Shown here: positions 38,899-51,422 of the stretch, in pieces
Numbering within the stretch: the first letter of the stretch is position 1
Layout of the letters: the number at the start of each line of letters is the position of its first letter
Assembly (NCBI GenBank): GCA_020630195.1
Contig: JAHDBV010000006.1
Coordinates: 1 to 64,000, forward strand
Reading direction: 5' to 3'
DNA: 64,000 bases
DNA from: Acidimicrobiales bacterium
Lineage (GTDB): Bacteria > Actinomycetota > Acidimicrobiia > Acidimicrobiales > SZUA-35
Program-made: the position numbers and the translations under genes
The notes under the pieces: generated by a model
The model's input: only the letters and a program-made list of their open reading frames with translations
Told to the model about the DNA's origin: nothing
Databases searched by the model: none

Positions 38899-38905
38899 CG
38901 TGGGG

Positions 38906-40819
38906 ATGTCCGTCGCCTCCGGCCATCGAGCCGACATCGATGCCCTCCGGGCGGCGGCGATCGGGCTCGTGGTCGGCTTCCACGCCCGCCTGCCCGGGTT
39001 CGACGGCGGCTACCTCGGCGTCGACGTCTTCTTCGTCGTCTCGGGGTTCCTGATCACCGGGCTGCTCCTCGCCGACATCGAGCAGCACGGCACGATCCGC
39101 CTGGCGCGGTTCTGGACCCGCCGCATCCGCCGCCTGCTCCCCGCCTCGACTCTCGTGCTCGTCGCCACGGCGGCCGCCACGGTCGTGCTGTCATCGCCGC
39201 TCGCGTGGCGGTCGACGGCGGAGGCCGGGCTGTGGGCGGCGGCCTACGCGGAGAACCTGTTCCTCGCCGCGGACGCGGCCGACTACTTCGCTCCCGAGAC
39301 CCGCAATCCGTTCGTGCACTACTGGTCGTTGGCGATCGAGGAACAGTTCTACGTGGTCTGGCCACTGCTGCTGTTGGCCGTCACCCGTCTCGTCCCCGCC
39401 CCGTCCCGCCGGCGGAGCCTCGCGGTGGTGCTCGGCCTCGTGGCGGCGGCGAGCCTCGCCCACTCGATCGCGCTGACCGCCGCCGACTCCACCTGGGCCT
39501 ACTACTCCCCGCTGTCCCGGGCGTGGGAGTTCGCCGCGGGTGGCCTGCTCGTCCTGGCGGAGCCGACGATCAACCGGTTCCGCTCACCCGCCCGCTCGAC
39601 GATGCTCGTGGCGTCGGGCGGAGCGATCCTGTGCTGGAGCCTGCTGACCCTCGACGGGTTCACGCCGTTCCCGGGGTGGCGGGCGGTGCCGCCGGTGCTC
39701 GGGACACTCGCCGTGCTGGCGGCCGCCGTCAGCCCGGCCAGCCCGTTCGGGCGTCTCGCCGGCCTCGCTCCGGTGCAGTGGCTCGGCCGGATCTCCTACG
39801 GCTGGTACCTGTGGCACGTCCCGATGCTGGTGTTGGCCGAACAGCGGCTGACGTCGTTCGGTCCGGCGATCCGGATCGCCGTCGCGCTGGGCGCGTTGGC
39901 GCCCGCGGCCGCCAGTCTGTGGTTGGTCGAGAACCCGATCCGGTTCCATCCCGGGCTGGCGAGGCGAACCGGCGCCAATGTCGTGTTGGGCGTCGGGCTC
40001 CTCGTGGTGTCGCTGACGGTCGTCGCCGTGGTCGACCGGGCCGGAACGGCCCGGATCGCCGAGCCACGGTTCGCCGAACTCGCGGCCGCCGTCGACGACC
40101 TCGAGCGGGTGGAGGACCGCGGCTGTCCGCCCGGCGCCACCGGCGACGATCTGCGCACCCGTTGTGTCTGGGGTGATCCCGCCGCCGAGCGGGTCGTGCT
40201 GGTGCTCGGCGACTCCCACGCCGACCAGTGGCTGCCCGCCCTCGACGAGATCGGCCGGGCCGAGCGACTCCGGATCCTGGTCCGCACCGTCGTGGCCTGC
40301 CCCGCGCTGCCGAGCGGCGGCGAGGGCGTGGTCACGACCGCCTGCGAACGGACCCAGGACACCCAGCTCGGGGTCATCGACGACGTCGACCCCGACCTGG
40401 TGGTCGTCACCCAGTGGACCGGCTCGTTCGCCGGCTACGACGAGGCCGTGTGGCGTACCTCGGTGTCCGACCTCGGCCGCACACTCGGTGACCGGGGCAT
40501 CGATCTCCTGTGGATCCACGATCCGCCGAGCTTCGCGGCGAACCCGATCGACTGTCTCGGGGTGCGAACCGAGGGAGCGTGCCGGCCGCCCGCCTCGGAG
40601 GCCGACACGGCCCGCTTCCACCGGGACCTGGTCCGCGACGAGCTCGACGGTGTCGCCTTCGGTGAGTTCGATCCGATCCCCCTCGTCTGCGACGACTCGC
40701 GCTGTCTCCTGCGGCGCGACGGCGTGCTGCTCTATCGGGACTCGAACCACCTCACCGCCACGGCGGCACGCACGTTCGTCGACGAGCTGGCGCCCGCCGT
40801 GCTCGGCTCGTCCGGCTGA
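38906..40819 (+). CDS. acyltransferase-3/SGNH-domain O-acyltransferase (OafA-like)
   Basis: The ~637-residue protein has an N-terminal acyltransferase-3 domain with about ten membrane helices. It begins HRADIDALRAAAIGLVVGFHA and contains FFVVSGFLITGLLL, FWTRRIRRLLPAS, HYWSLAIEEQFYVVWP, GRISYGWYLWHVPML and WLVENPIRFHP. A C-terminal extracytoplasmic SGNH hydrolase-like domain (from about residue 390) keeps the catalytic Ser in VLGDSHADQW and Asp/His in YRDSNHLTATAA. OafA-type proteins O-acetylate cell-surface polysaccharide or peptidoglycan. The target may be a surface glycan, but no glycan cluster is adjacent. It converges with the giant surface protein gene. Confidence 0.9.
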   Translation: MSVASGHRADIDALRAAAIGLVVGFHARLPGFDGGYLGVDVFFVVSGFLITGLLLADIEQHGTIRLARFWTRRIRRLLPASTLVLVATAAATVVLSSPLAWRSTAEAGLWAAAYAENLFLAADAADYFAPETRNPFVHYWSLAIEEQFYVVWPLLLLAVTRLVPAPSRRRSLAVVLGLVAAASLAHSIALTAADSTWAYYSPLSRAWEFAAGGLLVLAEPTINRFRSPARSTMLVASGGAILCWSLLTLDGFTPFPGWRAVPPVLGTLAVLAAAVSPASPFGRLAGLAPVQWLGRISYGWYLWHVPMLVLAEQRLTSFGPAIRIAVALGALAPAAASLWLVENPIRFHPGLARRTGANVVLGVGLLVVSLTVVAVVDRAGTARIAEPRFAELAAAVDDLERVEDRGCPPGATGDDLRTRCVWGDPAAERVVLVLGDSHADQWLPALDEIGRAERLRILVRTVVACPALPSGGEGVVTTACERTQDTQLGVIDDVDPDLVVVTQWTGSFAGYDEAVWRTSVSDLGRTLGDRGIDLLWIHDPPSFAANPIDCLGVRTEGACRPPASEADTARFHRDLVRDELDGVAFGEFDPIPLVCDDSRCLLRRDGVLLYRDSNHLTATAARTFVDELAPAVLGSSG

Positions 40820-40826
40820 TCCCGGT

Positions 40827-43800
40827 TCAGCGCCGCTCGTGGCGCCGGGAACGGCCCACGAGGAGGAACACGAACCCGAGGGCCAGGAGCAACACGGCCA
40901 GGCCGAGGGTCTGGCCCGTGCCCGCGCCGGTGTAGGCGAGCGGGTCCGTCGGCTCGTCGTCCCCGCCTTCACCGGCGTCGCCCTCACCGTCGGTGTCGAG
41001 CCCGTCGATGTCGGGCCCGAGCGGGCCGCCGCCACCGAGCGGGGGTCGGGTGGTCGACTCCGGCGCGTGGGTGTTGACGAGATCGAATCGCTCGACGGCG
41101 GCGTCGATCACCACCGCCGCGGAGCCCGACGGGTAGGAGGCGAGGTAGTCGCCGCCGCTGTCCTCGGACACGACACACCGTGACCCGAACGAGATGGCCG
41201 GAATCGACAAACCGTCGCTGGCCGTCACCACCCCGGTGCGGACCGACACGTCGCCCGTCGGATCGACGCAGCGCACGCTGATGTCGAACCCGCGGCCGAG
41301 ATCGATCACCGGGGCACCGCGGAGGCTCTTCACGATCACGAGCGTTCCGGCCTCACGGGTGTTGACGGTTGCCAACTCGCCCGGCTCGTCGCTCGACAGG
41401 ACACGTTCGGCCGCGCCGACGGTGGCCGCCCAGCCGGCGCCCGGGCTGAGCTCGGTCACCGAACAGCCGGTGCCGTCGGCCCGGAGCGGCAGATCGGGAT
41501 AGCCGACCGCCACGGAGGTCGTGGCGGCCCCCGGGATCTCGATGTCGAAGGTGGTGGCGTAGCCGTCGTCGCAGCGCACGGCGAAGCGGAAGGTGCCACC
41601 GAGGTCGGTCACGAGCGGGGAGTCGGCCCGGGTCGTCTTGCGCACGACGAGCTCGGCGGTGCGGTTCTCGACACCGACCACGGCGTCGTCGACGCCGTCG
41701 ACCGTGACGGTGGCGTCCACGGGTTCGTAGACGGGCAGGAACCGTTCGTCGTCGGCTTCGACGAGGGTGCAGACGGCTCCGGTGGGGAGACCCCCGACCA
41801 CCGCCGGCGAGACCGTCGACAGTTCGACCTCGACCGTGTGGCTGCCCTCGACGAAGTCGCCCTCGCACGTGAGGGTCGCGTCGAAGGTCTCACTCGCGAG
41901 ATCGTCGAGGGCGGCGTCGGGGGCGCCGACGACGGTCTTGTCGATCCGCACCTCGGCGGTGTCACGGATGTTCGTGAAGCGGGCGATCTCGGGCACGGCG
42001 GAGAACGTGACCGTGACGGGCTCGGTCGATGCCGGCGTCCAGCCCTCGGGCACGTCCACCTCGGTGACGGTGCACGACGTGCCGGCCGGGTGGTAGCCGG
42101 TCTCGGCCCAGGCGACCGACCCCTCACGACCCTCGGGCCCATCGGTGTCGGTGGTGACCTCGATGATCTCGTCGGTGCCGTCGTCGCAGACGACGTGGAA
42201 TCGGAACGAGCCGTCGAGATCGACCGGGTGGTCGGAGTCGGTCGTGGTCGCCTTGACGAGGATGAAGGTGCCGGTGGCGTTGGTGACGGTCACCTCCGCA
42301 CCGGCGTCGCTGACCAGGACGGTCCCGTCGATCGGGTCGGAGCTGGCGGCGAAGCGGGGGTCGGGCGACTCGGTCACGACACACGTGGCGCCGGTCGGCA
42401 GGTCGTCCACCGTGGCCGCGGCGATCCCCGAGATCACGGTGACGATCTCGTGGGCGCCGCCGACGAAGTCGCCGGTGCAGGCGACGGTGACCGGGAAGTC
42501 GAGGGTGCCGAAGACCTCGCCGGGACGATCGGGGTCGACGGTGTCGACGGCGACCCCGTCGAGCAGCTTGGTGATCGTCAGGGCCGCGGTGTCACGGGTC
42601 AGCTCGAACGTGGCGGTCGGGGTGTCGGCCTCCGGATCGGTCGGGTCGGGGACGACGAGGGAGACCGAGCCGGGGCTGGTGACGGTGCCGTCGTCGGCGT
42701 CGTCGAGGCCGGTGTCGGAGAGGGTCCACGCGGCCGGGGTCGACTGGACGACCTGGCAGGTGCTGCCGGGTGCGAGCAACGGCGGTGCGGCGGGGTCCCA
42801 CGGTCCGTCACCGGCGCCGTCGACGCCGATCACGACGGTGTCGGACCAGCCGGTTCCCCCCGACGGGGTGAGGCAGGTGATCGTGACGGTGACATCGACG
42901 GCGAGGTCGATCGGGTGCGTCGCCGGGGCGACCGTCGTGATGTCGAGATCGATCGTGCCGGTGCGGTTCTCGAGACCGACCTCGGCCGTGTCCTCGGCGG
43001 CCACCCGGACGGTCCCGTCGGCGGGGGTGGCGACGACACCGAAGCGGTCGTCGGGTGCTTCGGTCACGACACACGTCGCGTCCGAGGGCAGATCGGCGAT
43101 CACGAACGGCTCGTCGACCGACACGGTGCCGGTGACGGTGTGGGTGGCGTCGTCGAACCCGGAGGAGCACACGACGGTGACGTCGAACGGCTCGGCGTCG
43201 AGGTCGACCCCGGCGGGAACACCGGCGAGCGACTTGGTGATCTCGACCGCACCGGTGCGGCGTTCGTTCACGAACTCGGCGGTGACGGGGTCGGCGGCGG
43301 AGACGGTGAGGGTCACGGCCGCATCGCCCCGGAGGGTCCACGACGGGCCGGCGTCGAGCTCGGTCACGGTGCACGAGGTGCCGTCCGCGAGCAGTGGCAG
43401 TTCCGCATAGGTGAGGAAGCCGAACGAGCCGTCGGCCGTCGCGAGGCTCACGTCGAGGTCGTAGACGGCGTCGTGGGCGACACCACAATCGACCCGGAAC
43501 GAGAACGTCGCATCGGTGTCGATCGGATGCGTCGTCGGCGCCACGGTGCGCTTCGCGATGATCATCGACCCGGTGGCGTTCTCGACCGCCGCGGAGGCGC
43601 CGGCGTCACCCACGACGACCACGGCCGAACGTCCGTCCGGTGCGGGCGGGCTGTAGGTCGGGGCGAAGCGGGGATCGGCCGATTCGGTGATGTCGCACAC
43701 CGCACCGGTCGGCAGATCGTCGACGACGAGCGCCGTGTCGACCGACACCCGGGTGTCGCCGGTGACGACATGGGCGCCACTCGGATCGTTGCCCTCGAAG

Positions 43801-46800
43801 TCGCCGGCGCAGGTGATGGTGAGATCGAACCAGACGTCGTCGAGGTCGAGTGCGGCGGGCACCCCGTCGAGGGTCTTGGTGATCGTCAACGCCGCGGTGT
43901 CGCGCCGGTCGACGAACTCGGCGACGGCCGGGGTGCCGGCCACGGTCGTGAGCGGACCGCTCGGTTCGTCGACGAGGGTCCATCCGGTCGGCGGAGCGGA
44001 CTGGGTGATCGTGCACGAACTGCCCGGCGGCAGCAGCGGTGCGTCCGCGTCTCCCCAGGTGGTGCCGACCACGTGATCGTCGCCGGCCACGGCGACGGCA
44101 CCGTCGGTGGTGAGGGTGAGGGTCTCGCTGTGTCGGAGCACCGTGTCGGGGCCGACACAGCTGATCGTGATCGAGAACGTCGCCTCGAGGTCGAGGTCGT
44201 GGGTGGCCGGTCCGACGGCGTCGAGGGTCACACCGATGGTCGAGGTGGTGTTGGTGACCTCGATCGTGCCGTCGGCCTCGAGGGTGAGCTCGCCGGCGGT
44301 CCCGTCCACCGAGGCCGGGCTGTAGCTCGTCGTGAAGCGGGGATCCTGCGTCTCGACGACGGTGCAGACCGAGCCGGTGGGAAGGTCGGCCACGACGACG
44401 GGGGTGTCGGCGGTGACCGTGGTGGACACGGCGACGGCACCACCGGCGACGTCGCCGGTGCAGGTGATGTCGATGTCGAAGGCCTCGTCGTCGAGGTCGA
44501 ATGCGGCCGGGACCCCGTCGAGGGTCTTGGTGACGGTCAGGTCGGCGGTGTCACGCACGTTGGTGAACTCGAACGCGACGGGGGCGGCCTCGTCGGTGTC
44601 GATCACGACGGTGGCGTCGCCCTCGACGCTCCAGCCGGCGAGTGCGCGCTCGGTCACCGAGCAGGTCGTGCCCGGGGCGACGTGGAGGTCGTTCGGTGTG
44701 GTCACCGAGGTGGCCCCGTCGGTCGTGGTGAGGGCGATCGTCGTGGTCGTGCCGTCACAGTCGACGTCGAAGGTGAACGTGTCGTCGACCACGATCGGGT
44801 GGGTGTCGGCGGCCTCGGTGGTCTTGGTGATCGAGATCGTGGAGGTGCGATCGACGAAGGCGACCTCGGCGCCGTCGCCGGGCAGGGTGACGTCGAACGT
44901 GTCGTCGTCGACGGCGAACCCCGGCTCGGCGGCCTGTGTCACGGTGCACGAGGTCCCGACGGGGAGGTCGGCGATCACCAGGGGGGTCGTCTCGGACACC
45001 GTGAGCGGACCGGGCACGGTGTGGGTCCCGTCGACGGTGTCGAAGCCGCCGTCGCAGACGACGGTCACGTCGAAGGTGGTACCGGAGAGATCGAGACCGG
45101 GGGTGGCGCCGAGCACGTCGACGGTGATCGTCAGCTCCGCGGTGTCCCGGGTGTTCTCGAAGGCGAGGGTGGCCGTGGTGTCGGGATCGACGGTGACGGG
45201 GCCCGCCGGCGCCGAGGTCTGGCTCCAGCCGGTCGGCACGGTCTCGGTGGCCGAGCAGGTGGTGCCCGACGGCAGGAGCGGCAGGTCGTCGTAGCCGATC
45301 GATCCGACGGTGGTGGTCGCCGAGGCGGCGGTGTCGACCGGGACCACGACGCTCTCGTCGTAGCCGTTGGAGCACACGACCCGGAACGTGATGTCGAGGT
45401 CGCGGTCGACGGGGTGGGTGTCGGGAGCCCGGTTGATCTTGGTGAGCAGGACGTCGCCGGTGGCGTTGACGACGGCGACGGTCTCACCGTCATCGTCGAT
45501 CGTGACCTGCCCACCCGCGCCGCCCGCGGGGCTGTAGGAGGTCGTGAAGCGGGGGTCGGCGTCCTCGACGACGGTGCAGACCGAGCCGGTCGGGAGCCCG
45601 TCGATGGTCGCCGACGCCGAGGGCCGGATGGCGACGTCGTCGAAGCGCAGGTCGGCCCCGCCGACCCCGCCGGTGCAGGTCACGTCGACGGTGAAGGTGG
45701 TGTCGGCGACGACGGCGTCGGGCGCGCCGAGCACCGTCTTCGTGATCGTGAGCGACCCGACGTTCCGGTCGTTCGAGAACGTCAGCTCGGCGGGACCATC
45801 GCTCGAGATGGTCAGCGACCGGTCGTTGCCGCCGGTCAGGGTCCAACCGGTCGGCACGTCTTCGGTCACGGTGCACTCCATGCCGTCGGGCAGGAGGGGC
45901 AGGTCGGGGTGGCCGACCGTCGCGGCGACCCCGTCGACGATGTCGAGGGTGACCGTGAGGTCGGTGCGGCCGTCCTCGTCTCCGTCGTTGCAGACGAGCG
46001 TCAGGTCGAACGAGCCGTCGAGGTCGAGTGCGAGACCCGACGTGGTGGTCGTCGTCTTGGTCAACTCGACCACACCCGTGGCGTTGCGGACGATGATCAA
46101 CGAGTCCGAGGTGCCGACGACGGTCGACGAGCCCACGGGGTAGGTGGTCGTGAAGCGACGGTCCTGTTCCTCGGCCACGGCACAGGTCGTGCCGGTGGGG
46201 ACGTCGGTGATGACGACCGGCACGACCTCGGACACGCTGGAGGCGTCGGGCACGAGCAGCGGGCTGCCGAGCACGTCGCCGATGCAGACGACACTGATCG
46301 GGAACGCCTCGGCGCTGAGGTCGGCCGTGTCCGGAGCGCCGACGATCTGCTTGCGGATGATGACGTCACCCGTCTCACGGTGGTTGGTGAACGCCGCGGA
46401 TGCCGGGGCGTCGGTCGACGTGGTCACCTCGGCCGTCGTCGCCGAGGTCGGCGTCCAACCGGTCGGGATGGCGGTCTCGGCGATCTCGCACTCGGTGCCG
46501 GGCGGGAGCAGCGGGGCGTCGGGGGCGACGAACCGGCCGACACCGTCGGTGGCCGGGGCGACGACCTCGGTGCGCACCGCGACGGTCTCGTCGAACAGCA
46601 CACCGCCGGGCCCGGTGCAGGTCACCTCGAAGGTGAACGTCTCCGCGAGGTCGGTGAGGTCGCCGTCGGCCGTCGCGGTCTTGGTGATCTCGAACGACGA
46701 GGTCTCGGCCAGCACCGTGCGGGTGTTGGCTCCCTCGACGATGGTCACGGGCGTCGGGTCGGTGATCGTGAATCGTCCGTCGAGGTCGGTGGCGACGGTG

Positions 46801-49800
46801 CAGTCGGCCCCGGTGGGCAGGTCGTCGACGGTGACGGCGGCGTTCTCGGTGAGTGTGGTCGGGCCGACGACGATCGGACTCGTCGTGAAGTCACCCGTGC
46901 AGGTGATCGTGATCGTGAACGGTTCGTCGGTGAGGTCGACGCCGGGCGGGGCGCCGACGACGTCGAGGTCGACGACGAGCGAGCCGACCCGGCGCTCGTT
47001 GTCGAACGAGGCGGTGTTCTGGTCGCCGGCCTGGACGGTCAGGGTGACCGACGGCGCCGAGGTCAGGTTCCAGCCGGCGGGGACGACCTCGGTGATCGTG
47101 CAGCTGGTGCCGACGGGCATGACGGGGAGTTCGGTCCAGGTCAGGGCGCCGATGCCCATCCCGCCCGACACCTGGTCGACGGCGATGGTCCGCACCTCGT
47201 CGAACGCCGCACCACAGTCGATCCGGAAGTCGAACGACCCGAAGAGGTCGATGTCGTGGGTGGTCGCGGCCGAGGTGTTCTTGCGAATCACGAGCGTGCC
47301 GCCGGCGTTGATGATGCCCGCCTCGGCATCGGCGTCGAGGGTGACCGTGGCCCGATCGTCGTCGTCGGGGTTGTAGTAGGCCACGAATCGGGAGTCGGCC
47401 TGTTCGACGATGTCGCACGTCGTGCCGACCGGGAGATCGTCGATGACGAGCTCGGTCGTCGGGGTGAGCGTCCCCGTGACGACGTGGGCGGTCGGATCGG
47501 TCGTGAACCCACCGGTGCAGGTCACATCCACGGTGAAGGTCTCGGCGGTGAAGTCGAGGCCGTCGGGGATGCCGACGAGGGTCTTGTCGATGGTCAACGA
47601 GACGGTGTCGAGCTCGTTCACGAAGTCGGCCGTCTCGACCACGGCGGCGTCGGTCACGACGTCGACCGAGGCGTCGCCGACGATCGTCCAGCCGGCGGCG
47701 GCGGTCTCGGTCACGGTGCAGGTCGTCCCGGGCGGGACGAGCACGGCGGCGGTCGGGGCCCAGGCCCCGGCGTGGTCGGTGGTGGTGATCGACGGCGTGG
47801 CGGCACCGATCTCCGTGCCGGCGCCGTCGACACAGGACACGGCGAAGTCGAAGGTGCCGTCACCCTCGAGCGGGTGCGGGCCCGGGATCGTCACGGTCTT
47901 CGTGATGCCGACCGCGGAGGTGGTGTTGGTCAGGGTCGCCGAGGCGCCGCCGTCGGACACGAGCACGGGGTCGGCGGGCGCGACGGATTCGGCGAAGCGC
48001 GGATCGTCGGCCTCGGTCACCGTGCAGGTCGAACCGGTGGGGATGTCGCCGACGACGAGCGGCGTGTCCACCGAGACGGTGAGTGGGCCGGGCACGTCGA
48101 AGGTGCCGCCCTCGAACCCGCCGGTGCAGCTCACGGCGACGGTGAAGGCCTCGGCGTCGAGATCGATCCCGGCGGGGACGCCGGCGAGCACCTTCGTGAT
48201 GGTGAGTTCGGCGACGTCACGTCGGTTCACGAACCCGACGTCGACCGGGGTGTGGGCGCTCGTGGTGAACTGGACGCCGTCACCACCGACGGGTGTGCCA
48301 CCGGTGCGGGCGTCGATGGTCCAGCCCGTGGGCAGATCGGTCTCGCGGATCGTGCAGCTCGTCCCGGGGGCGACGAGGGGGAGGTCGGCCACGGCGGCCG
48401 CGCCGATCCCGTCGGTGACGTCGATCGTGACGGTCTCGCTGCCGGCGCCGCAGTCGATCCCGAACTCGAAGCCGCCGTCGAGGTCGATGCTCGCGTCGCT
48501 GGCGGTGGTGGTCTTGGTGAGGGTGAACGACGAGGTCGTGTTGGTGATCGTGACGATGCCACCGGCGTCGATGGAGATCGGACCCGCTGGCTCGTTCGTC
48601 GCCGTGAAGCGGGGGTCGGCGGTCTCGACCACGGTGCAGCTGGCACCGGTCGGGATGCCTTCGATCGTCCAGGACGTGTCGACCGAGACGGCGCCGTCGA
48701 GGCCGACCGAGCCGTCGATGAAGTCGCCGGTGCAGGTCACGTCGACGTCGAACGGCTCGGCGTCGAGATCGAGACCGGCCGGGACGCCGGCGAGCACCTT
48801 GTCGATGTCGAGGTCGGCGACCTCGCGTTCGTTGGTGAAGCCGAGTTCGGGCTCGGGGACCTCCGCGGTGATCGTGGCCGAGACGGTGGTCGCCCCGACG
48901 GGCGTCCAGCCGGCGGGCACCTGCTCGGTCGCCGTGCAGGTGGTGCCCGGCGGGAGGAGCGGGAGGTCGGTGTAGGGCACGCCGCCGGCGGCACCACCGG
49001 GCACGAGCGCATCGGTGACGACGAAGTGGGTCGCTTCGTGGATGGTCGTGGCGCCGTTGACGCAGATGATCTCGAACTCGAAGGTGTCGGTGAGATCGAC
49101 GGGCAGGGCCGAGTCGACCACGGCGTCCTTGCGCACCACGAGGGAGCCGGTCTGGTTGGTGATGTCGACCGACCCCGTGGCCTCGTCGAGGGTGATGGTG
49201 TCGGCGGGGCTGTAGCTCGCCACGAAGCCGGGCTCGGCCGTCTCGACCACGGTGCACTCGGTGCCCCGGGGCAGGTCGGCGATCACGACATCGGTGTCGG
49301 TGGCCACGGTGTGGGGGCCGGGCACCACGTGGGAGGCGACGGTGAAGCCCCCGGCACAGGTGATCGTGAGGTCGAAGTCGTAGGTGGACGGATCCTCGGC
49401 CGAGGGGAGGCCCAGGATCGACTTGGTGACGGTGAGATCCGACAGGAGCCGGGTGTTGGTGAACACGAGCTCGGGGGTCGTCGTCGAGGAGATCGTGACC
49501 GATCGGGTCGCGAGGTCGATCGACCACCCCGGCGGTGCGGTCTCGGTGACGGTGCACACCGCACCTTCCGGCAGCAGCGGCACGTCGGGGTACGACGCGG
49601 CGACGGTCTGGCCGGACGTGGTCATCGGGATCGTGACCGAGTCACCGGTGTCACACGAGATCTCGACACTGAAGGTGTCGTCGAGGTCGATCGGATGGGT
49701 CGAGGCACCGACGGTGTCGACGCGCAGGTCGATGGTGCCGGTGTGGTTCGTGAACTCGGCCGATTCGGTGCCGACGGCACCGTCGACGAGCACGGTGCCC

Positions 49801-51422
49801 CCGGTGGTCGTCGTCGACTCGACGGATCCGCCGACCTCGACGCGGTACCCGGCGGGCGCCGGACTCTCGGTCACCTCGCAGGTGGCGTCGGGCGGCAGAC
49901 CACGGAGCACGACACGTTCGCCGTCACCCAGCGCGAAGCCGTTGGCCACGGCGTCGGGCCAGGCCGCGCCACCCGGGGCGACGATGTCGGCGGCATCGAC
50001 GGTGTGGGCGGCGCCGGTGAGGGGGTCGGTGCAGGCGACGACGAAGTCGAACGTGCCGGGCGTGCCGGGGTGGCCCTCGACGGTCTTGCCCACCAGGAGA
50101 TCGGAGGCGACCCGGATGGTGGTGGGGTCCCGAGGATCGGAGGTGTCGCCGGGGTCGTCGGAGAGGAACTCGACCGTGCCGTCGCGGCCGAGGTCGAGGG
50201 TGGCCTGGTTGGCGTATTCACCGGGTGCCATCCCCGCGGGGACCGCGACCTCGATGTCGATCGTGACCGGCGGCTGGCCGGGGGTGTCGGGGTCGGTCCA
50301 GAGGCTGGACGGCACCTCGACGTCGATGCACACCGAGGTGTCGCCGGCGCTGCCGCCGCTCGCGAGCACCGCCGAGCCGTGCGAGCTCGACCACGTGCCG
50401 GTGTAGGTCCGGCCGTCGGCCGGGAGATCGTCACAGACCCGGGTGTTGAGACCCTGGGTCGGCAGCCCGTTGTTGATCACGGTGATGCGGTAGGTGACGG
50501 TGTCGCCGGGTTGGACGATGCGTGCGGCGAGCGGGACGCTCGCGCCGGCGTCGACGACGTCTTTGGTGATGTCGATCTTCGACACACACGACGTGCCGTC
50601 GGTGCCGCCGTTGGAGCCGGGGCGGCCGGCGAACCGGTAGGAGCCGTCGGTGACGTCGACACGCCAGATGTCGCCGGGGTTGTTCCGGAACAGATACAGG
50701 AAGCCCGACGGGTCGAACCACGAGGCACCGAAGTTGCCGTTCGGGAACCCGCCGTCGCTGTTGTCGACGGCGATCTGGGTGACGGCGCCGGTGTTGGGGT
50801 GCACCTTGTAGAGCACCCGATTGACCACGTGGTAGAGGTAGCCGTCGAGCGGGTTGTACGAGATGTCGGCGACGTTCGTCGGCATCGTGCCGATGTGGGT
50901 CGACGCGCCGGTCGCCGGGTCGATCGACCACATGTTGAAGCGGGCCCCGGCGTACCAGCCGTTGCCGTTGCCGGCGCCGACGGAGTGGACGATGAACCGA
51001 CCGTCACCGAGCACGGTGCCCGCGTACTGGCCGGAGTTCGACGGGTACGGGGCCTGCACGGCGACGTCACGGATGATGCCGCCGTTGGCGTCGTACATCC
51101 GGACCACGGGCACACCGCCGACCTTGACGATGCCGTAGAGCAGGTCGGTCGTCGGGTCGTAGGCGGTCGAGTTGGCGATGTTGTTCGCCATGGCCAACTC
51201 GTCGAGCACGAGTTCACCGGGGGTGGCGGGGTCGGGCACGACCTGGAACAGGCGTGACCCGCGCATCAGCAGCGGGATGCCATCGCAGTCCCAGGTCGGG
51301 TGGTCACCGCCGTGGTCGGCGGCCGCCGGAGGCGTCGGCAGGGCCACGAGCACGGACGCGAAGAGCACCAGCGAGAGCGCCGTGACGAGGGCGCGGCGGG
51401 CCGAGGTGAGCAGGTGGAACAC
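40827..51422 (-). CDS. giant secreted surface protein with about 29 DUF5979-like repeats and LAYTG anchor
   Basis: The 3531-residue protein begins with a Sec signal peptide (ALVTALSLVLFASVLVALPTPPAAADH). Residues ~45-290 form a DUF6923-like beta-propeller-like region (LLYGIVKVGG, DISYNPLDGYLYHVVN). A DUF11/isopeptide-like domain starts near KIDITKDVVDAG. From about residue 438 to 3450 come ~104-residue immunoglobulin-like units alternating between two types. Type A is like LTITKxLxGVPxGxDL; type B is like HPIDLDxTFxFxVxC ending in PGTTCTVTE and GWT. Most units have two Cys, suggesting one disulfide each. The end is a Gly/Asp-rich linker, LAYTGAGTGQ (residues ~3495-3504), a hydrophobic helix and RSRRHERR. 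LAxTG is the class E sortase type of signal. GTG 51422 has GGGAG upstream. It is probably a long cell-wall stalk or adhesin. Confidence 0.9.
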   Translation of the reverse strand: MFHLLTSARRALVTALSLVLFASVLVALPTPPAAADHGGDHPTWDCDGIPLLMRGSRLFQVVPDPATPGELVLDELAMANNIANSTAYDPTTDLLYGIVKVGGVPVVRMYDANGGIIRDVAVQAPYPSNSGQYAGTVLGDGRFIVHSVGAGNGNGWYAGARFNMWSIDPATGASTHIGTMPTNVADISYNPLDGYLYHVVNRVLYKVHPNTGAVTQIAVDNSDGGFPNGNFGASWFDPSGFLYLFRNNPGDIWRVDVTDGSYRFAGRPGSNGGTDGTSCVSKIDITKDVVDAGASVPLAARIVQPGDTVTYRITVINNGLPTQGLNTRVCDDLPADGRTYTGTWSSSHGSAVLASGGSAGDTSVCIDVEVPSSLWTDPDTPGQPPVTIDIEVAVPAGMAPGEYANQATLDLGRDGTVEFLSDDPGDTSDPRDPTTIRVASDLLVGKTVEGHPGTPGTFDFVVACTDPLTGAAHTVDAADIVAPGGAAWPDAVANGFALGDGERVVLRGLPPDATCEVTESPAPAGYRVEVGGSVESTTTTGGTVLVDGAVGTESAEFTNHTGTIDLRVDTVGASTHPIDLDDTFSVEISCDTGDSVTIPMTTSGQTVAASYPDVPLLPEGAVCTVTETAPPGWSIDLATRSVTISSTTTPELVFTNTRLLSDLTVTKSILGLPSAEDPSTYDFDLTITCAGGFTVASHVVPGPHTVATDTDVVIADLPRGTECTVVETAEPGFVASYSPADTITLDEATGSVDITNQTGSLVVRKDAVVDSALPVDLTDTFEFEIICVNGATTIHEATHFVVTDALVPGGAAGGVPYTDLPLLPPGTTCTATEQVPAGWTPVGATTVSATITAEVPEPELGFTNEREVADLDIDKVLAGVPAGLDLDAEPFDVDVTCTGDFIDGSVGLDGAVSVDTSWTIEGIPTGASCTVVETADPRFTATNEPAGPISIDAGGIVTITNTTSSFTLTKTTTASDASIDLDGGFEFGIDCGAGSETVTIDVTDGIGAAAVADLPLVAPGTSCTIRETDLPTGWTIDARTGGTPVGGDGVQFTTSAHTPVDVGFVNRRDVAELTITKVLAGVPAGIDLDAEAFTVAVSCTGGFEGGTFDVPGPLTVSVDTPLVVGDIPTGSTCTVTEADDPRFAESVAPADPVLVSDGGASATLTNTTSAVGITKTVTIPGPHPLEGDGTFDFAVSCVDGAGTEIGAATPSITTTDHAGAWAPTAAVLVPPGTTCTVTETAAAGWTIVGDASVDVVTDAAVVETADFVNELDTVSLTIDKTLVGIPDGLDFTAETFTVDVTCTGGFTTDPTAHVVTGTLTPTTELVIDDLPVGTTCDIVEQADSRFVAYYNPDDDDRATVTLDADAEAGIINAGGTLVIRKNTSAATTHDIDLFGSFDFRIDCGAAFDEVRTIAVDQVSGGMGIGALTWTELPVMPVGTSCTITEVVPAGWNLTSAPSVTLTVQAGDQNTASFDNERRVGSLVVDLDVVGAPPGVDLTDEPFTITITCTGDFTTSPIVVGPTTLTENAAVTVDDLPTGADCTVATDLDGRFTITDPTPVTIVEGANTRTVLAETSSFEITKTATADGDLTDLAETFTFEVTCTGPGGVLFDETVAVRTEVVAPATDGVGRFVAPDAPLLPPGTECEIAETAIPTGWTPTSATTAEVTTSTDAPASAAFTNHRETGDVIIRKQIVGAPDTADLSAEAFPISVVCIGDVLGSPLLVPDASSVSEVVPVVITDVPTGTTCAVAEEQDRRFTTTYPVGSSTVVGTSDSLIIVRNATGVVELTKTTTTTSGLALDLDGSFDLTLVCNDGDEDGRTDLTVTLDIVDGVAATVGHPDLPLLPDGMECTVTEDVPTGWTLTGGNDRSLTISSDGPAELTFSNDRNVGSLTITKTVLGAPDAVVADTTFTVDVTCTGGVGGADLRFDDVAIRPSASATIDGLPTGSVCTVVEDADPRFTTSYSPAGGAGGQVTIDDDGETVAVVNATGDVLLTKINRAPDTHPVDRDLDITFRVVCSNGYDESVVVPVDTAASATTTVGSIGYDDLPLLPSGTTCSATETVPTGWSQTSAPAGPVTVDPDTTATLAFENTRDTAELTITVDVLGATPGLDLSGTTFDVTVVCDGGFDTVDGTHTVPGPLTVSETTPLVIADLPVGTSCTVTQAAEPGFAVDDDTFDVTLPGDGAEVAFVDRTSTISITKTTEAADTHPIVVDDTFTFDVDCDGTTTTIALTTTDGATSVTTPNDLHVAPGTTCSVTERALAGWSVEGDATVVIDTDEAAPVAFEFTNVRDTADLTVTKTLDGVPAAFDLDDEAFDIDITCTGDVAGGAVAVSTTVTADTPVVVADLPTGSVCTVVETQDPRFTTSYSPASVDGTAGELTLEADGTIEVTNTTSTIGVTLDAVGPATHDLDLEATFSITISCVGPDTVLRHSETLTLTTDGAVAVAGDDHVVGTTWGDADAPLLPPGSSCTITQSAPPTGWTLVDEPSGPLTTVAGTPAVAEFVDRRDTAALTITKTLDGVPAALDLDDVWFDLTITCAGDFEGNDPSGAHVVTGDTRVSVDTALVVDDLPTGAVCDITESADPRFAPTYSPPAPDGRSAVVVVGDAGASAAVENATGSMIIAKRTVAPTTHPIDTDATFSFRVDCGVAHDAVYDLDVSLATADGSFGFLTYAELPLLADGTSCTVTELDAGPSWTLRGDAAVTLTVSAADPVTAEFVNERRTGAVEITKSLAGVPAGVDLDAEPFDVTVVCSSGFDDATHTVTGTVSVDEPFVIADLPSDATCVVTEAPDDRFGVVATPADGTVRVAAEDTAEVGLENRTGTIDLDITTVAPATHPIDLAVDVTVTITCLTPSGGTGWSDTVVIGVDGAGDGPWDPAAPPLLAPGSTCQVVQSTPAAWTLSDTGLDDADDGTVTSPGSVSLVVPDPTDPEADTPTATFELTRDTAALTITKLLDGVAVDTVDPDRPGEVFGTLDFPVTVACTGDFVGGAHEIVTVISGIAAATVDDLPTGATCVVTESPDPRFAASSDPIDGTVLVSDAGAEVTVTNATGTFILVKATTTDSDHPVDLDGSFRFHVVCDDGTDEIIEVTTDTDGPEGREGSVAWAETGYHPAGTSCTVTEVDVPEGWTPASTEPVTVTFSAVPEIARFTNIRDTAEVRIDKTVVGAPDAALDDLASETFDATLTCEGDFVEGSHTVEVELSTVSPAVVGGLPTGAVCTLVEADDERFLPVYEPVDATVTVDGVDDAVVGVENRTAELVVRKTTRADSPLVTDLGGTFRFAVRCDDGYATTFDIEIPGAATTSVAVGYPDLPLRADGTGCSVTELSPGAGWAATVGAAERVLSSDEPGELATVNTREAGTLVIVKSLRGAPVIDLGRGFDISVRCVDPTGDVSVRTGVVTASDGLSIPAISFGSRCVVSEDSGGDYLASYPSGSAAVVIDAAVERFDLVNTHAPESTTRPPLGGGGPLGPDIDGLDTDGEGDAGEGGDDEPTDPLAYTGAGTGQTLGLAVLLLALGFVFLLVGRSRRHERR
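41065..50112 (-). repeat. array of about 29 alternating type A / type B domain repeats within the giant gene
   Basis: By eye I count 15 type A units (the first, DLLVGKTVEG, and last, LVIVKSLRGAP, being atypical) and 14 type B units in strict A-B-A-B order, averaging about 312 bases. The units are homologous but clearly diverged; exact tandem copies are not apparent at DNA level. This points to old dyad duplication rather than recent slippage. Confidence 0.85.

Follow-up and report, generated by a model that had tools for sequence, protein, structure and literature searches.

A giant gene on the minus strand of an Acidimicrobiales MAG, at positions 40827-51422 of the window (the whole 64,000-nucleotide stretch that was analysed), encodes a protein of 3,531 aa with a GTG start. 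We consider it likely, at a probability of roughly 0.72, that this protein is a fibrillar adhesin-like tether, made of a single chain, anchored by a sortase and strengthened by a covalent spine; in this reading the formation of the bonds, the location at the surface, the adhesive role and the mechanics are all predicted. The protein carries a signal peptide, an N-terminal head, a repetitive stalk and a C-terminal sortase signal, which is the layout of fibrillar adhesins:

40827..51422, minus strand: giant stalk gene, 3531 aa, GTG start (GC3; ortholog comparison)
51315..51422, minus strand: signal peptide, aa 1-36, with basic start, hydrophobic core and AAA-DHGG
50553..51287, minus strand: beta-propeller head, DUF6923, approximately aa 46-290 (Pfam DUF6923, E 2e-17; predicted model)
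50112..50552, minus strand: DUF11 (CLIPPER-type) domain, approximately aa 291-437 (TIGR01451, 26.8 bits, cut-off 24)
49728..50111, minus strand: stalk domain 1, divergent A type, aa 438-565 (DUF7601 match)
41055..49727, minus strand: 28 alternating CnaB/DUF5979 domains forming 14 B-A dyads, d02-d29, aa 566-3456
40830..40940, minus strand: cell-wall sorting signal, LAYTG at aa 3495-3499, hydrophobic helix and basic tail RSRRHERR

The full stalk thus comprises 29 domains (aa 438-3456), and an acidic Gly-rich linker lies between its end at aa 3456 and the LAYTG motif, which together with the helix and basic tail spans aa 3495-3531. A sequence-only reading of this DNA had already described such a LAYTG-helix-basic tail, and its proposal of a surface stalk is likewise supported.

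Coding status and integrity of the array

The coordinates and length given in the sequence-only reading were exact, and the strand, on which it was silent, is minus. A GC3 of 0.93 supports coding, as does comparison with the ortholog in a separately assembled genome of the same genus (G014, JAHDCV010000014.1), in which differences by codon position number 625/478/1353, dN is 0.173, dS is 0.657 and amino-acid identity is 76%. A plus-strand open reading frame at 41838-51257 (3139 aa) was rejected as a shadow frame opposite the GC3-rich gene, since orthology and the codon-position counts favour the minus strand. The window derives from a 112 kb contig in a MAG of 4.9 Mb (200 contigs, 82% complete). 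The stalks of the window genome (G000) and G014 contain the same 29 domains, which are reciprocal best hits with order kept at all 29 positions, and the highest identity between any two domains inside the window protein is 54%. An origin of the copy number in misassembly was rejected on the strength of this low internal identity and the recurrence of the 29 domains in an independently assembled genome; the copy number is thus no obvious assembly artefact.

Family and fold of the stalk domains

Each of the 29 stalk units could be assigned to the CnaB/DUF5979 type, with Pfam DUF5979 (PF19407) exceeding its curated cut-off over 28 stretches (701 bits, E 1e-215). DUF5979 is classed among the CnaB-like isopeptide families, for which a solved template is available (4BUG, Lys610/Glu680/Asn715; PMC12617251). 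Structure prediction, which the sequence-only reading had suggested as a check, was run on the tetrad d18-d21 and produced a confident AlphaFold model (mean pLDDT 95.6, pTM 0.84, from a 98-sequence alignment) with a CnaB/transthyretin-like fold, and CnaB structures were its best matches. The closest was an isopeptide domain from the giant adhesin of Mobiluncus mulieris (5u6f; Z 12.9, rmsd 2.3 over 101 residues), followed by the Streptococcus pyogenes pilins 3gld and 3b2m (Z ~11). A profile alignment with the T13 pilin places the Lys and Glu of the triad opposite LKIEK and TE of that pilin. The domains had initially been described as immunoglobulin-like. That fold is ruled out by the DUF5979 assignment together with the CnaB/transthyretin-type model and matches, and the classification in PMC12617251 agrees. 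The stalk contains 58 Cys, one pair in each of the 29 units, and a further 4 Cys lie in the head; the Cys pairs had been noticed before, although crediting them to "most" units was too cautious.

Alternation of A and B domains

Within the window stalk, mean identity is 37.6% among A domains, 33.4% among B domains and 22.6% between A and B. A tree of 341 domains, taken from the window protein and from 14 related genomes, is divided by a single branch (support 1.0, length 0.71) into 170 A and 171 B domains with none misplaced. The earlier description of about 29 units in strict A-B alternation with low mutual identity is therefore upheld by the identities and by the dyad phylogeny, a check that it had itself put forward. 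When 44 outgroup domains are included, B forms a clade (0.88), A forms a clade (0.82) from which a single divergent C-terminal domain is missing, and all first stalk domains join A (0.76), so that the array order is A'-B-A-B...-A. If 14 A and 14 B domains were ordered at random, strict alternation would arise with a probability of ~5e-8 (2/C(28,14)). Profiles of A and B built from the window protein were used to classify the domains of relatives, and strict alternation was found in all of them, with margins mostly of 50-120 bits. Apparent breaks in alternation were dismissed as low-margin fragment hits within one domain or, in L071, as a B domain split by an insertion.

The 12 C-terminally complete proteins contain 29, 29, 29, 31, 31, 25, 25, 25, 23, 23, 23 and 21 domains, all odd numbers, and recent copies are spaced 2 domains (L065), 4 domains (L063) or 6 domains (L070, G032) apart, with their blocks in register. 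Because of these odd counts and even spacings, the dyad is taken as the unit of change, and the two-domain duplication unit proposed earlier is supported. The alternation probably arose a single time, through duplication followed by divergence. A simple cause for growth and shrinkage by whole dyads would be that A and B are too dissimilar to recombine with one another. Alternation is not a general trait of DUF5979: when scored with the A and B profiles, five further large actinobacterial proteins of this family give near-equal values.

Spacing of the junctions

Measured from the triad Asn to the triad Lys of the following domain, the spacing is always 11 residues at B>A junctions (171 of 171) and always 9 residues at A>B junctions (156 of 156). 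Because these positions were taken from the alignment, the count was repeated for junctions with an actual N and K at both ends, which gave 11 in 159/159 B>A and 9 in 143/143 A>B cases. Domain bodies vary in length, with Lys-to-Asn distances of 80-120 residues in A. Both spacings are odd numbers, so that the residues stay on the same strand face. In the d18-d21 model there is hardly any interruption between the final strand of B and the A domain (89-97, 99-109), and a three-residue break lies between A and B (192-199, 203-212). Outgroups use 11 residues at nearly every junction, and for this reason the 9-residue A>B joint is probably the derived state. The fixed 11/9 spacing suggests strict selection on the distance between successive covalent bonds.

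Joint loss of the Lys/Glu/Asn triad

The triad of Lys (first strand), Glu and Asn (last strand) is intact in 321 of the 339 A/B domains scored; 11 domains are without all three residues and 7 are partial, at least two of the latter (G030_d21, L071_d04) looking like alignment effects. In the window stalk the triad is intact in 24 of 29 domains, the other five being:

49455..49721, minus strand: d02 (B), only Lys lost (to Val); Glu, Asn and Cys pair retained
46707..46967, minus strand: d11 (A), triad lost (Leu/Thr/Ala); Cys pair retained
44850..45122, minus strand: d17 (A), triad lost (Val/Gln/Asp); Cys pair retained
43908..44225, minus strand: d20 (B), triad lost (Leu/Gln/Asp); Cys pair retained
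42600..42941, minus strand: d24 (B), triad lost (Ile/Gln/Leu); Cys pair retained

Among the 15 domains lacking the Lys, Glu is lost in 13 and Asn in 11, and these domains retain the core Phe, the Trp and, with the exception of one clade, mostly the Cys pair. Where the triad is lost, it mostly goes as a whole and at fixed positions, with other core residues retained. Fisher tests of joint loss gave values of 1e-15 to 1e-20 (K-E ~1e-20), which are uncorrected for kinship and so overstate independence; approximately six loss events can be counted, namely d11, d17, d20 and d24 within the window genus, plus losses from the penultimate B domain of two to three other groups. On comparative grounds, this joint loss argues strongly that the three residues share a single chemical role, that of the predicted isopeptide bond. 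In G005, G006 and G008, which are all three array-bearing genomes of their genus, the penultimate B domain, near the cell-wall end, is without the triad and both Cys.

Predicted anchoring and disulfides, and genomic setting

LAxTG is a class E sortase signal, and LAxTG-type tails (LAFTG/LARTG/LAQTG/LAATG/LALTG/LAFSG) terminate all C-terminally complete relatives. The window genome encodes three sortases, one of which is class E-like (153.8 bits, just under the curated cut-off of 160) and two class F-like, and sortases were found in 8 of 8 relatives tested. One class F-like sortase lies directly after a 1026-aa DUF4397 protein frame (L060 2243-5994, plus strand, contig C131), and the second lies ~11 kb from the class E-like sortase on contig C101. 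No VKOR was found in 9 genomes (the window genome and 8 relatives), though every stalk domain has a Cys pair, and searches for Thioredoxin_4 and DsbD found none; DSBA-family proteins were found, and the predicted stalk disulfides are likely on that account.

Relatives of the protein occur in at least 14 other Acidimicrobiales genomes, those named here all being MAGs, and the C-terminally complete ones have 21-31 domains. Within the taxonomic family, 10 of the 39 genomes contain DUF5979, 9 of these having at least 19 matches, and a phylum-wide sample contained any DUF5979 in 24 of 396 genomes. The only other DUF5979 domain in the window genome lies at the end of a 912-codon frame (L058 3976-6712, minus strand, contig C15). 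Neighbouring genes encode acyl-CoA ligases, an AT3-SGNH acyltransferase and a DeoR regulator, and are kept only in the genus mate G014; these metabolic neighbours, conserved there alone, were set aside as a clue to function. The AT3-SGNH acyltransferase gene (38900-40819, plus strand) converges on the giant gene, an arrangement likewise kept in G014 only.

Proposed function and alternative explanations

According to the tether model, the stalk would be exported unfolded and then fold into 29 CnaB domains, in 24 of which the Lys of the first strand and the Asn of the last would join autocatalytically, with the Glu assisting, while the Cys pair would contribute a disulfide per domain. Two joint types, of 11 and 9 residues, alternate along the array. 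Pulling force could then pass between successive bonds with no more than 9-11 residues of each junction in its path, so that the stalk would resist stretching and proteolysis. The stalk would hold the propeller head off the cell, the LAYTG being joined to the cell wall by the class E-like sortase. At a textbook domain length of 4-5 nm, 29 domains would measure 115-145 nm, in agreement with the earlier guess of >100 nm.

An account of earlier force spectroscopy given in PMC12617251 describes Spy0128 as inextensible, its first-to-last-strand isopeptide bond making force bypass the domain body. By the same reasoning, any give in the present stalk would be confined to the unbonded domains and to the joints of 9-11 residues. 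It is conceivable, albeit doubtful, that the stalk is a patterned mechanical device, in which 24 domains are locked and inextensible, d02, d11, d17, d20 and d24 alone yield under load, and the 11/9 joints set a regular twist. Bond-less domains that retain the disulfide might then permit a defined, limited extension, very roughly 85 nm (~290 residues outside disulfide loops x 0.36 nm, minus folded length).

The AlphaFold model of the head (mean pLDDT 82.8, 15-sequence alignment) matches propellers of the six-bladed type, the best with Z 14.6 over 207 residues (rmsd 3.5), which bears out the propeller-like head recognised earlier; because sequence identity to these matches is only 10-17%, function cannot be read from them. 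Literature searches on DUF6923 and on Acidimicrobiales sortase adhesins returned no match. The head is under strong purifying selection (dN/dS 0.081/0.508 and 0.066/0.737).

The most serious alternative, which we nevertheless regard as unlikely, gives the protein a purely structural role, as a spacer or as an outer coat (S-layer-like, or a cell-cell spacer), with the propeller as an assembly or capping module. No binding function is known for the head, a single array copy is present per genome among the genomes inspected, and the head and DUF11 form the most conserved portion of the protein, as would also be expected of a structural contact. Yet a signal peptide, head, repetitive stalk and sortase tail reproduce the published layout of fibrillar adhesins (PMC12617251), and the patchy occurrence (10 of the 39 genomes in the taxonomic family) is unlike that of a required coat.

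It is less probable still that the stalk is a rod displaying an enzyme, with a catalytic propeller held off the cell: the head has low-quality Foldseek matches to sialidases and propeller matches to glutaminyl cyclases, but these matches are generic to propellers, the sialidase TM is <0.3, DUF6923 is without assigned activity and no catalytic motif was recognised in the head. A subunit of a sortase-polymerised pilus is very improbable, for although shaft pilins contain CnaB domains and pilins are among the structure matches, no sortase, pilin gene or pilin cluster adjoins the gene, whose neighbours are metabolic, no class C sortase is among the three found in this 82% complete genome, and 29 domains lie on a single chain.

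Comparison with known systems

The tether model places the stalk among a kind already known, the giant bacterial adhesins; what is new is the unusually regular A/B alternation, the two-joint spacing and the patterned triad loss. Of these the sequence-only reading had seen the alternation, but it had missed the triad, the domains without it and the junction spacing. The family supplies hundreds of naturally occurring versions of a single isopeptide domain pair joined at a fixed spacing, the disappearance of Lys, Glu and Asn together offers natural evidence that the triad acts as one unit, and the predicted presence of bonded and unbonded domains within one stalk is ready-made for force measurements. 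Proteins this large fall outside the isopeptide survey of PMC12617251, since the AlphaFold DB models used there stop at 1280 residues, and the present stalk shows that giant proteins beyond that limit conceal further predicted isopeptide architectures.

Three systems are closest. The DUF5979/CnaB family (PF19407; PMC12617251) shares the domain type and the same Lys/Glu/Asn triad, but in the DUF5979 giants of the outgroup the A/B split is absent and junctions measure 11 residues nearly throughout. S. pyogenes Spy0128 and the T-antigens (3b2m, 3gld, 6bbt) likewise consist of tandem beta-sandwich domains with Glu-catalysed Lys-Asn bonds, predicted in our case, and the two-domain arrangement of the pilin matches the stalk model over ~193 residues (rmsd 4.4); unlike the present protein, Spy0128 is a polymerised two-domain pilus subunit with no alternating array. 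The giant adhesin of Mobiluncus mulieris (7651 aa; 5u5o/5u6f; PMC10619420) is also a single-chain actinobacterial giant with an N-terminal head, a sortase tail and tens of cross-linked domains bearing isopeptide and disulfide bonds (predicted here), and it provides the best structural match to an A domain (Z 12.9). Its head is a thioester domain rather than a propeller, a text search of the paper describing it (PMC10619420) returned no word starting with "alternat", and its ester-bond and isopeptide domains are mixed in blocks, unlike the A/B array described here.
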